Shown here piece after piece: positions 4,034-10,438 of a stretch of DNA of 10,604 nucleotides. Position 1 is the stretch's first letter. The number at the start of each line of letters is the position of its first letter. The notes below the pieces were generated by a model. The model ran no database searches, was not told the DNA's origin, and saw nothing but the letters and a program-made list of their open reading frames with translations. Both the position numbers and the translations under genes were made by a program. The stretch is taken from contig CADBQF010000116.1 in NCBI GenBank assembly GCA_902796705.1, forward strand, positions 1-10,604, written 5' to 3'. This stretch comes from Ruminococcus flavefaciens (GTDB lineage Bacteria > Bacillota > Clostridia > Oscillospirales > Ruminococcaceae).

Positions 4034-4062
4034 TTTACATTCGCAGAAAAATATTGTATAAT
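4034..4062 (+). promoter_or_regulatory. Sigma-A promoter of the glutamine synthetase-like gene
   Basis: TTTACA at 4034-4039 (5 of 6 matches to the -35 consensus), a 17 bp spacer, and a perfect TATAAT at 4057-4062. Transcription would start near 4069, giving a leader of only about 26 bases that holds the GGAGG ribosome site at 4082-4086. That leaves no room for a leader terminator or an ANTAR-type double hairpin. Confidence 0.75.
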
Positions 4063-4094
4063 AATAAAAGTGTTTTTTTACGGAGGTTTTTTCT

Positions 4095-5387
4095 ATGAGC
4101 CAAGCTCCAAAAGAGATCCTCAAATTTGTTGAGGAGAACGATGTCAAGTTCATACGCCTGACTTTCTGTGATATTTCAGGCAATCTCAAAAATGTTGCGA
4201 TAATGCCGGACGAGCTGGAAAGAGCTTTTACGTGCGGCATACCTTTCGATGCTTCTTCACTGGGCAGCGATATCTCTGATCTGCTGCTCTTTCCGGATAT
4301 ATCCACTCTCTCGGTGCTTCCGTGGAGGCCGAGATCGGGCAGAGTCGTCCGTTTCTTCTGTGACCTGCGTAATCCTGACGGTACAGATTTTGAGGGCGAT
4401 ATCCGCAGAGACCTTACAAGATATATAAACGAACTGCGGCTCAACGGCTTTTCGTGTGAAATGGGTACTAAGTGCGAATTCTATCTGTTTGACCTTGACG
4501 AGAAAGGTCAGCCTACAAAGATACCTCACGACAGCGGCAGCTTCCTCGATGTAGCTCCGCTCGATAAATGTGAGAACGCAAGGCGTGAGATATGTCTTTC
4601 ACTTGAAGAAATGGGTATGCACCCGATAAGTTCATGCCACAAGCACGGCCCCGGACAGAACGAGATCGATTTCCGTGAGAATGAACCTGTTGCTGCTGCT
4701 GATAATATGGTGCATTACAAGACTGTCGTAAAATCCATAGCCGCACAGAACGGTCTGTTCGCTTCGTTCATGCCGAAGCCTTTGCCGAATGAACACGGCA
4801 GTGCATTGAGCATTTCTATAAGCCTTAAAAAGAACGGAGAGAATATCTTTGGCACAGGCGGAGATATCCCGTTCGAGGGACGATGCTTCATTTCCGGTGT
4901 ACTAAGGCATATACGTGAGATAACGGCTTTCCTCAATCCGATCACCAATTCGTACAAAAGGTTCGGCATCGGCTACGCTCCGAAATATGTCAACTGGTCG
5001 TTCGAGAACCGCTCTCAGCTAATACGTATCCCCTGCATTTCAGGTGTGACTCCGAGGATAGAGATACGTTCTGCCGATGCGTGCTGCAATCCGTATATCA
5101 CTTTCAAGCTGATACTCGCTGCCGGTATCGAAGGACTGCGTTCGGGAGACTGTTCACTCATGGAAAGCACCATGAAGGAAGATATGTCCCCTGCCGGATT
5201 TGAACCTCTGCCGCTGTCACTGAGAGAGGCTCTTGATATCGCAAGGGAGAGCAGCTTTGTAAAGCAGAATCTCCCGGAGAATATTTTGTCTACCGCATTC
5301 GCACAGATAAGCAAGCAGCTCCAGCAGTATGACCTCGCTCGAAATAAGGACGAATTTGAAGATATGACATATTTTAAATTTATGTGA
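4095..5387 (+). CDS. Glutamine synthetase type I homologue with degenerate active site, probable pseudoenzyme
   Basis: The fold is glutamine synthetase I (430 aa; short clostridial form without an adenylylation loop). Recognisable landmarks: FDASS (51-55), LLLFPD..T (63-71), PGQNEIDF (186-193), NSYKRFG (285-291), NRSQLIRIP (305-313), RIEIR (321-325) and CNPY (331-334). Residues that bind metals and glutamate in Salmonella GlnA are changed. Glu129 is Lys126 (GTKCEF), Glu212 is Lys183 (SSCHKHGPGQ), His269 is Ser239 (HGSALSISISL), and the flap base Glu327, which should precede Ala-Pro, is Tyr294 (GIGYAPKY). Glu131, Glu220 and Glu357 are retained as Glu128, Glu190 and Glu323. With two metal-ligand Glu reversed in charge and the base lost, ATP-dependent glutamine synthesis is unlikely. 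The frame is intact with normal codon use and good expression signals, so it is not a decaying pseudogene. It is followed after 15 bases by an ANTAR protein, suggesting a sensing or scaffold role in nitrogen control. That role is inference. Confidence 0.85.
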   Translation: MSQAPKEILKFVEENDVKFIRLTFCDISGNLKNVAIMPDELERAFTCGIPFDASSLGSDISDLLLFPDISTLSVLPWRPRSGRVVRFFCDLRNPDGTDFEGDIRRDLTRYINELRLNGFSCEMGTKCEFYLFDLDEKGQPTKIPHDSGSFLDVAPLDKCENARREICLSLEEMGMHPISSCHKHGPGQNEIDFRENEPVAAADNMVHYKTVVKSIAAQNGLFASFMPKPLPNEHGSALSISISLKKNGENIFGTGGDIPFEGRCFISGVLRHIREITAFLNPITNSYKRFGIGYAPKYVNWSFENRSQLIRIPCISGVTPRIEIRSADACCNPYITFKLILAAGIEGLRSGDCSLMESTMKEDMSPAGFEPLPLSLREALDIARESSFVKQNLPENILSTAFAQISKQLQQYDLARNKDEFEDMTYFKFM

Positions 5388-5402
5388 TAGGGCTGATCTT
5401 TT

Positions 5403-5966
5403 ATGAAAAGAGCGATAATAGTATCTCAGGCAGGTCAGGAAGCTGAAACAGCCGGTCAGGTCCTCAGAGCTGCCGGATTCGTAAAAACTGCGGAAGTCTC
5501 CGGCTGTGCCGAAGCAAGGCGTTATCTCACAGGCGATGTGCTGCCGGATATCATGATAATAAATTCACCTCTTCCCGATGAATCAGGACACGAACTCGCA
5601 CTCATGGCGGCTTCTGCTGCGGCGTGCGGTGTTATCTTCATTGTGCCGGGAAATATAGCGGACGAAACAGCCGACAGCTTCGCCGGGAGCGGCATACGTG
5701 TGATAACTCGTCCTCTGAACAGGAAAATACTCACTGAAACGATAGCTGAGCTTTCTGCCGGAACTCCGGCTGTGGACAAGGAAAGCCCTGATCTCCTTAT
5801 AAGGATAGATGAGATAAGGCTGATAAACAAAGCGAAGCGTACTCTCATGGAATACCTTGGCTTTACCGAGCCGCAGGCTCACAGGTATATCGAAAAACAA
5901 GCAATGGACAACCGCCAGACTCGTCTGGAGGTAGCGGAAAAGATCATATCTTCATACGACAAATAA
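5403..5966 (+). CDS. ANTAR-domain RNA-binding regulator with a pseudo-receiver domain
   Basis: Residues 1-118 have the size and strand pattern of a response-regulator receiver, but the phosphorylation chemistry is gone. The acidic pair after strand 1 is missing (IIVSQAG, 5-11). The acceptor position in DIMIINSPLPDESG (49-62) is Asn54 instead of Asp. The usual Lys near the end is Arg103 (TRPLNR). Residues 131-183 match ANTAR: a helix with INKAKRTLMEYLG (141-153), then TEPQAHRYIEKQAMDNR (155-171) and VAEKII (177-182), the usual three-helix pattern with the AK, LM and A..Y signature. ANTAR domains bind paired RNA hairpins and prevent transcription termination in characterised cases, and glnA-linked ANTAR regulators are known in clostridia. 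The gene begins 15 bases after the synthetase-like gene behind a weak AGGG site, and they share one promoter and one terminator. Its target RNA is not visible here. Signal input may come from its gene partner rather than from a kinase; this is inference. Confidence 0.88.
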   Translation: MKRAIIVSQAGQEAETAGQVLRAAGFVKTAEVSGCAEARRYLTGDVLPDIMIINSPLPDESGHELALMAASAAACGVIFIVPGNIADETADSFAGSGIRVITRPLNRKILTETIAELSAGTPAVDKESPDLLIRIDEIRLINKAKRTLMEYLGFTEPQAHRYIEKQAMDNRQTRLEVAEKIISSYDK

Positions 5967-5978
5967 AATACATATTTC

Positions 5979-6023
5979 ACGCCCCGAAGCAGCTCAGGAT
6001 ACTGCTTCGGGGCGTTGTTTTCT
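5979..6023 (+). terminator. Strong rho-independent terminator after the ANTAR gene
   Basis: ACGCCCCGAAGCAG (5979-5992) and CTGCTTCGGGGCGT (6002-6015) form a perfect 14 bp GC-rich stem with a 9-base loop, followed by TGTTTTCT (6016-6023). It lies 12 bases after the ANTAR stop and ends the two-gene operon. Confidence 0.92.

Positions 6024-6169: not shown

Positions 6170-10438
<4,269 letters not shown>

Follow-up and report, generated by a model that had tools for sequence, protein, structure and literature searches.

The 10,604-nt contig CADBQF010000116.1 of Ruminococcus flavefaciens, the whole of which we call the window, carries two intact open reading frames (ORFs), 15 bases apart, that encode a glutamine synthetase (GS)-like protein and a regulator with an ANTAR RNA-binding domain; one promoter lies upstream of the pair and one strong terminator downstream. 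The features of this operon are listed here, with residue counts drawn from an orthologue set described below:

4034..4062, plus strand: sigma-A type promoter TTTACA-17-TATAAT, predicted to drive the GS-ANTAR pair, with a short leader
4082..4086, plus strand: ribosome-binding site GGAGG, assigned from sequence
4095..5387, plus strand: GS-like protein, 430 aa, predicted pseudoenzyme (Pfam, TIGR00653, AlphaFold2 (AF2)/Foldseek)
4470..4472, plus strand: Lys126 codon, at presumed metal ligand E132 (Salmonella E129), by alignment
4476..4478, plus strand: Glu128 codon, retained presumed ligand E134 (Glu in 81/81)
4641..4643, plus strand: Lys183 codon, at presumed metal ligand E189 (Salmonella E212), by alignment
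4662..4664, plus strand: Glu190 codon, retained presumed ligand E196 (Glu in 81/81)
4809..4811, plus strand: Ser239 codon, at presumed metal ligand H245 (Salmonella H269), by alignment
4974..4976, plus strand: Tyr294 codon, at flap E304 (Salmonella E327) in one alignment, a gap in another
5061..5063, plus strand: Glu323 codon, retained presumed ligand E333 (Glu in 81/81)
5403..5966, plus strand: pseudo-receiver and ANTAR RNA-binding protein, 187 aa (Pfam, AF2 model, nearest folds)
5562..5564, plus strand: Asn54 codon, at the receiver phosphorylation site, by alignment
5802..5948, plus strand: ANTAR domain (Pfam)
5980..6021, plus strand: intrinsic terminator closing the two-gene operon, assigned from sequence

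Profile matches and a predicted model indicate that the upstream protein has the beta-grasp and catalytic domains, and the fold, of a glutamine synthetase. Pfam recognizes both domains (Gln-synt_N, PF03951, 4e-20; Gln-synt_C, PF00120, 1.4e-76), and an AF2 model built from a 54-row alignment has a mean predicted local distance difference test score (pLDDT) of 90.6 and finds its best solved match by Foldseek in the Methanosarcina mazei enzyme (8tfk, TM-score 0.90). The protein nevertheless falls below the NCBIfam TIGR00653 GlnA equivalog cut-off, scoring 315 bits versus 429. A preliminary description of this locus, made from the sequence alone, had noted an intact frame, the fold landmarks of the family and a good promoter, all of which are borne out by the 430-residue ORF, the Pfam and AF2 results, and a TTTACA-17-TATAAT promoter.

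Inspection of the active site, using the aligned portion of Bacillus subtilis GS (4s0r) for numbering, revealed that three of the six residues that we take to be metal ligands (E132, E134, E189, E196, H245 and E333) are replaced, with K126 at E132, K183 at E189 and S239 at H245. The flap residue E304 corresponds to Y294 in one alignment and to a gap in another. These four substitutions are those that the preliminary description had called. The remaining three presumed ligands are kept (E128, E190 and E323 for E134, E196 and E333), as are the two arginines that we take to bind substrate (R289 for R298 and R325 for R335), while the D50-loop stretch that includes Arg62 is deleted. For the roles of Glu304, Arg62 and Arg316 we follow PMC9249791; R316 is still Arg in the window protein and varies within its clade (Arg in 41, Cys in 30 and Leu in 6 of 81). 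A shift of the alignment that would restore the metal ligands elsewhere is ruled out by the motifs CEFYLF, HKHGPGQNEID and RIEIR, which anchor the columns. Because two metal-ligand glutamates have become lysine and both the metal histidine and the flap glutamate are lost, the protein probably should not run the Mg-ATP ligase reaction. The pattern also suggests, without proving, that lysine amines at the two former ligand sites take the place of the metals.

The degenerate active site is, by comparison of orthologous sequences, a conserved state rather than ongoing decay or the oddity of one strain. Alignment of the window protein with the best 80 of 319 related stretches (81 sequences in all; the record labels read Ruminococcus or else Oscillospiraceae, Clostridiales or Bacillota bacterium) shows Lys (73) or Arg (8) at E132, Lys at E189 in 81/81, and Ser (66), Asn (8), Cys (5) or Ala (2), never His, at H245; flap Glu304 and Arg62 are both absent throughout. 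By contrast, E134, E196, E333, R298, R335 and G241 do not change in any sequence. Across the protein, 160 of 430 columns are conserved in at least 80 of the 81 orthologues, and the ratio of nonsynonymous to synonymous substitution rates (dN/dS) lies between 0.016 and 0.083 for 10 of the 12 pairs compared, the other two being saturated. In one of the 80 loci (L034) a stop interrupts the frame at codon 422 of 430. The shared replacements and low dN/dS rule out a strain-specific pseudogene. The regulator is equally persistent: a downstream ORF aligning with the window ANTAR protein is found at 81/81 loci, one such ORF being cut short, so that the search of relatives proposed in the preliminary description returned the degenerate synthetase beside an ANTAR gene at each of these best 80 loci.

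The 187-aa partner contains a clear ANTAR domain (Pfam 5.4e-15, 55.4 bits against a threshold of 27.3), and its AF2 model (pLDDT 85.4) has Rv1626, EutV and AmiR as nearest full-length folds. Its receiver, judged from the sequence, is not of the phosphorylatable kind, as S8/Q9 stand in place of the acidic pair and N54 occupies the phosphorylation site. The asparagine agrees with what had been called earlier, and the position varies in the clade (N 55, D 12, C 7, V 3, S 2, G 1, F 1; n=81); an acid at receiver position 8 or 9 occurs in only 2/81.

Examination of the class as a whole indicates that an adjoining GS gene goes together with loss of the receiver aspartate. Of 293 genomes of the class, 156 have an ANTAR match. 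Among 80 ANTAR stretches, picked from the matches listed for spread over families, a type I GS ORF occurs in 58, directly beside the ANTAR gene in 57 and further off in one (L117). Taking the 57 adjacent cases together with a second GS-ANTAR pair from the window genome (below), the aspartate is kept in 7 of 58 GS-paired ANTARs versus 20 of 23 with no GS alongside (Fisher p 2e-10, for rows that are not independent and uncorrected for kinship), and both the aspartate and an acid at position 8 or 9 are seen in 2/58 versus 13/23. Sorted by the state of the synthetase, the aspartate persists in 5 of 16 ANTARs paired with a canonical GS, 1 of 20 where the ligands are kept and the flap is lost, 0 of 8 where metal ligands are lost, and 1 of 14 where the flap Glu or Asp is present without Arg62. 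Since pairing tracks the loss of phosphorylation even beside a canonical enzyme, the GS looks like an input that replaces a kinase; that is, GS seems, from these sequences, to have taken over from phosphorylation as the input to the ANTAR protein. The 11 of 16 ANTARs that adjoin a fully canonical GS and already lack the aspartate likewise imply an order of events, in which GS contact probably came before the catalytic decay of the GS. The same 11 cases go against the suggestion, made when the locus was first described, that both partners lost their chemistry together.

The ANTAR-linked synthetases form a grade that runs from fully canonical proteins, through forms with metal ligands kept, a flap Lys and no Arg62, to forms in which metal ligands are missing. 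In a 75-row GS tree, computed by a quick method with trait columns removed and with 21 of 72 inner branches left open, the divergent forms fall in one clade (46 rows; Shimodaira-Hasegawa-like approximate likelihood ratio support 99), the window clade sits within a set of rows whose metal ligands are intact, and the metal-ligand state needs at least 7 changes. Placement of the long branches L160, L139 and L158 in this tree is uncertain.

The window genome, a 2.27 Mb draft of 441 contigs that is 88.7% complete, encodes three proteins with GS domains: the window protein, a second GS-like protein and a type III GS of 697 aa (PF12437, 2e-77) whose metal motifs are intact by eye. No intact, canonical type I glnA was found in this 88.7%-complete draft, and the apparent working glutamine synthetase, as far as sequence can tell, is the type III protein. 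The search for an intact second synthetase gene that the preliminary description had proposed thus yielded a type III enzyme and a further degenerate pair, but no type I glnA. Its idea of a mixed oligomer with an active synthetase becomes unlikely, because the apparent active enzyme is of type III and none of the GS-domain proteins found in the draft is a canonical type I subunit.

The second GS-like gene also adjoins an ANTAR gene, on contig C361, in the order gltB (cut by the contig end)-gltD-GS2-ANTAR2-purF-asnB; these names were assigned by eye, and the identities of gltB, purF and asnB were confirmed by profile in the counterpart R. flavefaciens stretch L198. GS2 of the window genome scores 261.5 bits against the TIGR00653 cut-off of 429, and in 12/12 further R. 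flavefaciens genomes as well as the window genome it carries Ser in place of E132, Thr in place of the flap Glu and Gly in place of R316 and retains its other metal ligands. Each of the 12 genomes has exactly two ANTAR, two type I GS-like and two or three type III matches, and each keeps gltB-gltD-GS2-ANTAR2-purF in order, with asnB next within the stretch in 9. The operon divergent from this cluster contains glnN in 12, pyrG in 11 and amtB in 10 genomes, and all three in 9. Across 60 genomes of the genus, two ANTAR matches were counted by eye in 43. In L198 (12730-14538) the ammonium transporter carries a PII domain fused at its C-terminus.

Candidate target sites for such ANTAR proteins were recognized by reading amtB leaders, where they take a single-hairpin form, and were scanned for as hexaloop hairpins with A first and G fourth in the loop and with a 3' half that doubles as the 5' arm of a terminator, with one mononucleotide shuffle per sequence set as control. 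In R. flavefaciens nitrogen loci (317 kb) the scan predicts 26 sites, and in their shuffled version 2; the corresponding counts are 33 and 1 for ANTAR stretches from across the class (474 kb) and 10 and 1 for loci holding window orthologues (660 kb), and 24 kb of the window genome gave none. By eye, downstream genes include amtB, glnN, GS, gltB, asnA and nadE, and profiles confirmed one example each of amtB, pyrG, glnN, nadE, asnA and a peptidase C26 gene. A site lies between gltB and the glnN operon in 12/12 R. flavefaciens genomes, upstream of amtB in 10 and of pyrG in 2, and many gltB leaders on the opposite strand also carry one. Leaders of the amtB type contain two tandem hexaloop hairpins about 60 nt apart, each overlapping its own terminator:

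L198, 12570-12730: tandem-hairpin amtB-type leader, with matching leaders in L199-L209, L211, L212 and L215

The second hairpin passes the scan in 7 of 12 R. flavefaciens clusters and is alignable in 15/15 leaders, in two of which its loop opens with G rather than A.

Where a promoter could be assigned (each box with at most 2 mismatches, a distance of 4-21 allowed), the stem starts 7-11 nt past the -10 box, with a mode of 11, in 33/33 sites, many of them in orthologous leaders. This spacing leaves little room for an upstream first hairpin and so departs from the dual-hairpin rule given in PMC3369931. A search for the dual-hairpin ANTAR motif found one weak match in 20 R. flavefaciens stretches and none in the window, L086 or L087, three sequences in which Rfam had no match either at E up to 1. 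Alignment A2 comprises the site from the window genome itself and 22 more, drawn from the 59 that the scan gave for R. flavefaciens and the class; covariation counts are biased, as the scanner selects for pairing, and we do not use them as proof.

A site model, R2, in whose training set 5 of 23 rows come from R. flavefaciens loci, so that its matches are not all independent, finds 25 sites at E up to 0.05 in 12/12 R. flavefaciens genomes. Fifteen precede amtB (one, L247, an amtB remnant), two pyrG (L234, L241), one gltB and one asnA; three lie at a divergent nadE/GNAT pair, two (L245, L246) look like plain 3' terminators, and the last (L253) has no downstream gene assigned. At the divergent pair (L250, L251 and L252, near 1507-1634), which consists of a glutamine-dependent NAD synthase gene and a GNAT-like acetyltransferase gene, the latter named by eye, both promoters are followed by a single-hairpin terminator site.

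These observations lead us to favor, with moderate confidence, a reading by analogy with AmiC-AmiR in which the GS-like protein is a non-catalytic nitrogen sensor that, in one step, gates a pseudo-receiver ANTAR protein by contact. It draws on residue changes and their conservation, gene linkage, loss of the receiver aspartate, and hairpin/terminator sites before nitrogen genes. The GS-like protein, presumed inactive, would bind a ligand, most likely glutamine or glutamate and perhaps together with a nucleotide, and through direct contact would hold or free the pseudo-receiver ANTAR, as AmiC does AmiR. Once freed, the ANTAR protein would bind the hexaloop hairpin that stands at the 5' end of transcripts for nitrogen assimilation and prevent formation of the overlapping terminator, turning on genes for ammonia and glutamine uptake and use; we infer the direction of this switch, as well as which of the two ANTAR proteins reads which site. 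The two-protein sensor of the preliminary description thereby survives as the best mechanism, with the degenerate GS conserved beside a pseudo-receiver ANTAR, whereas its sensing and contact steps stay conjectural. The contact mode of B. subtilis GS (glutamine-Glu304-Arg62) is ruled out, both residues being missing from every orthologue.

A more specific proposal, which we advance tentatively and with somewhat less than even confidence, is that a catalytically dead GS has become a dedicated glutamine sensor for an RNA-binding antiterminator, in a system widespread among gut and rumen Clostridia. Here, the lysines at the former magnesium places would keep the ligand pocket folded without metal, similar decay would have recurred where GS had already replaced phosphorylation as the ANTAR input, and the regulon would be read through a single hexaloop hairpin at the extreme 5' end of the transcript.

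Several observations count against the sensor reading. Twelve of the 81 clade ANTARs keep the phospho-acceptor aspartate. Most sites in R. flavefaciens consist of one hairpin, whereas the motif described in PMC3369931 has two. No predicted site precedes the window operon, whose leader shows neither a hexaloop hairpin nor a terminator, or the glnN gene of the window genome, and amtB was not found in that 88.7%-complete draft. Only one candidate site is present in the window genome, before a peptidase C26 gene on contig C269: among 150 candidates scored per model, it has E 0.029 with model R1, ranked behind a plain terminator, and E 0.073 with R2, whose training set includes the site itself. Sites matching R2 at E up to 0.05 also occur in 2 of 16 class genomes with no detected ANTAR. 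Among the 60 genus genomes, 13 have one ANTAR match and 4 have none (by eye). Finally, the tree rows are nearly all ANTAR-linked by choice, so that the tree does not show ligands to be lost more often next to ANTAR genes than away from them.

The C269 gene, which lies behind a strong promoter, encodes a gamma-glutamyl hydrolase-like protein below the NCBIfam cut-off, and a nearly identical leader occurs in R. flavefaciens genome G297, where the product of the downstream gene shares 84% protein identity with it. The top R1 match in the window genome (C140) is a plain 3' terminator and was rejected. In the two genomes with no detected ANTAR (G033 and G037; L254-L257), sites stand before glnN, an amidotransferase gene and one further unnamed gene; the ANTAR gene may be missing from these drafts, or another protein may read the sites.

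Other explanations of the GS-like protein seem improbable to differing degrees. It could be a structural partner that scaffolds or stabilizes the ANTAR protein or hetero-oligomerizes with the second GS-like protein, the signal arriving from elsewhere, for example from PII fused to AmtB or from ANTAR2. The co-existence of two GS-ANTAR pairs, the PII fusion in the regulated cluster of L198 and the GS subunit fold retained in the AF2 model all speak for such a role, but R298, R335, G241 and E134, which we take to be pocket residues, are unchanged in 81/81, which would be odd for a mere scaffold, and we consider it unlikely. Slightly more doubtful is an enzyme of changed chemistry, such as a one-metal gamma-glutamyl ligase or a metal-independent catalyst, beside which the ANTAR protein merely regulates nitrogen genes. 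Strong purifying selection, the full conservation of three metal acids and two substrate arginines among the orthologues, and the existence of GS-family proteins that use other substrates (PuuA, GlnA2/3) would fit; the invariant Lys at E189, Lys or Arg at E132, missing His and flap Glu, and variable R316 would not, and clades lose differing ligands, which does not suggest one new shared activity. That the gene is a relic whose catalysis decayed after the type III enzyme took over, kept by operon linkage only, is very unlikely, for although type III genes occur in the window genome and in 12/12 R. flavefaciens genomes and one locus has the early stop, the dN/dS values, the 160 conserved columns and the gene's position first in its own operon, behind a well-spaced promoter, all oppose it.

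Among known systems, the sensor reading finds its closest parallel in ligand-gated ANTAR pairs. AmiC has a periplasmic-binding-protein fold, and the window partner differs in having that of GS. In AmiC-AmiR and NasS-NasT, according to PMC3369936 and PMC3795266, a ligand-binding protein holds an ANTAR antiterminator with a receiver or pseudo-receiver. The window pair shares with both the adjacency of partner and receiver-ANTAR genes and the nitrogen-related targets; AmiR, one of the nearest solved structures to the window ANTAR, also has a non-phosphorylated pseudo-receiver. Unlike NrtA-like NasS, however, the window partner has a GS fold, and its contact with the ANTAR protein is putative. NitR of Clostridium saccharobutylicum, an ANTAR protein described in PMC6316151 and PMC4676874, induces GS and glutamate synthase (GOGAT) genes on nitrogen limitation, and so similarly ties an ANTAR regulator to these genes through antitermination, but the GS adjoining the window ANTAR is degenerate and the apparent enzyme is the type III protein encoded elsewhere. 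Direct contact between GS and a transcription regulator, which the proposed reading would share, is described for GS-TnrA (PMC6316151) and for GS-GlnR of B. subtilis and other Gram-positives, where the GS is active and its contact with GlnR involves a tail of GlnR together with Glu304 and Arg62 (PMC9249791); the window protein has neither residue, and its partner carries an RNA-binding domain.

A GS fold without the expected catalysis, as predicted here, has a counterpart in lengsin, a GS-fold eye-lens protein that is not known to have GS activity and whose structure (2j9i) the window protein matches at E 7e-6. Lengsin is a vertebrate protein, the two sequences are far apart, and we know of no regulator partner for it. 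ANTAR sites before nitrogen genes have been described (PMC3369931). Our literature search, with most subscription papers outside it, found no ANTAR-linked GS pseudoenzyme. We class the window pair as a variant of ligand-gated ANTAR pairs and leave it outside the GS enzyme family. If the reading is correct, an enzyme family has repeatedly been turned into a bacterial signalling pseudoenzyme, with intermediates (a canonical site, a missing flap Glu, missing metal ligands) that survive today next to the same type of regulator, and major fibre-degrading bacteria of rumen and gut would have a nitrogen sensor with RNA sites, residues and a partner that can be tested. Annotations of 'glutamine synthetase' beside ANTAR genes in Clostridia may often not mark a working enzyme.

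Flanking the operon, the window encodes a glycoside hydrolase family 2 beta-galactosidase of 1414 aa (6194-10438), a cellulosome-type enzyme that also carries a concanavalin-like lectin domain and, at its C-terminus, a type I dockerin. On the minus strand (3-2897), clpS, a gene for a clpA-like AAA+ ATPase and aat (leucyl/phenylalanyl-tRNA transferase), the last cut by the window end, stand side by side and represent parts of the N-degron pathway in a Clostridial genome.

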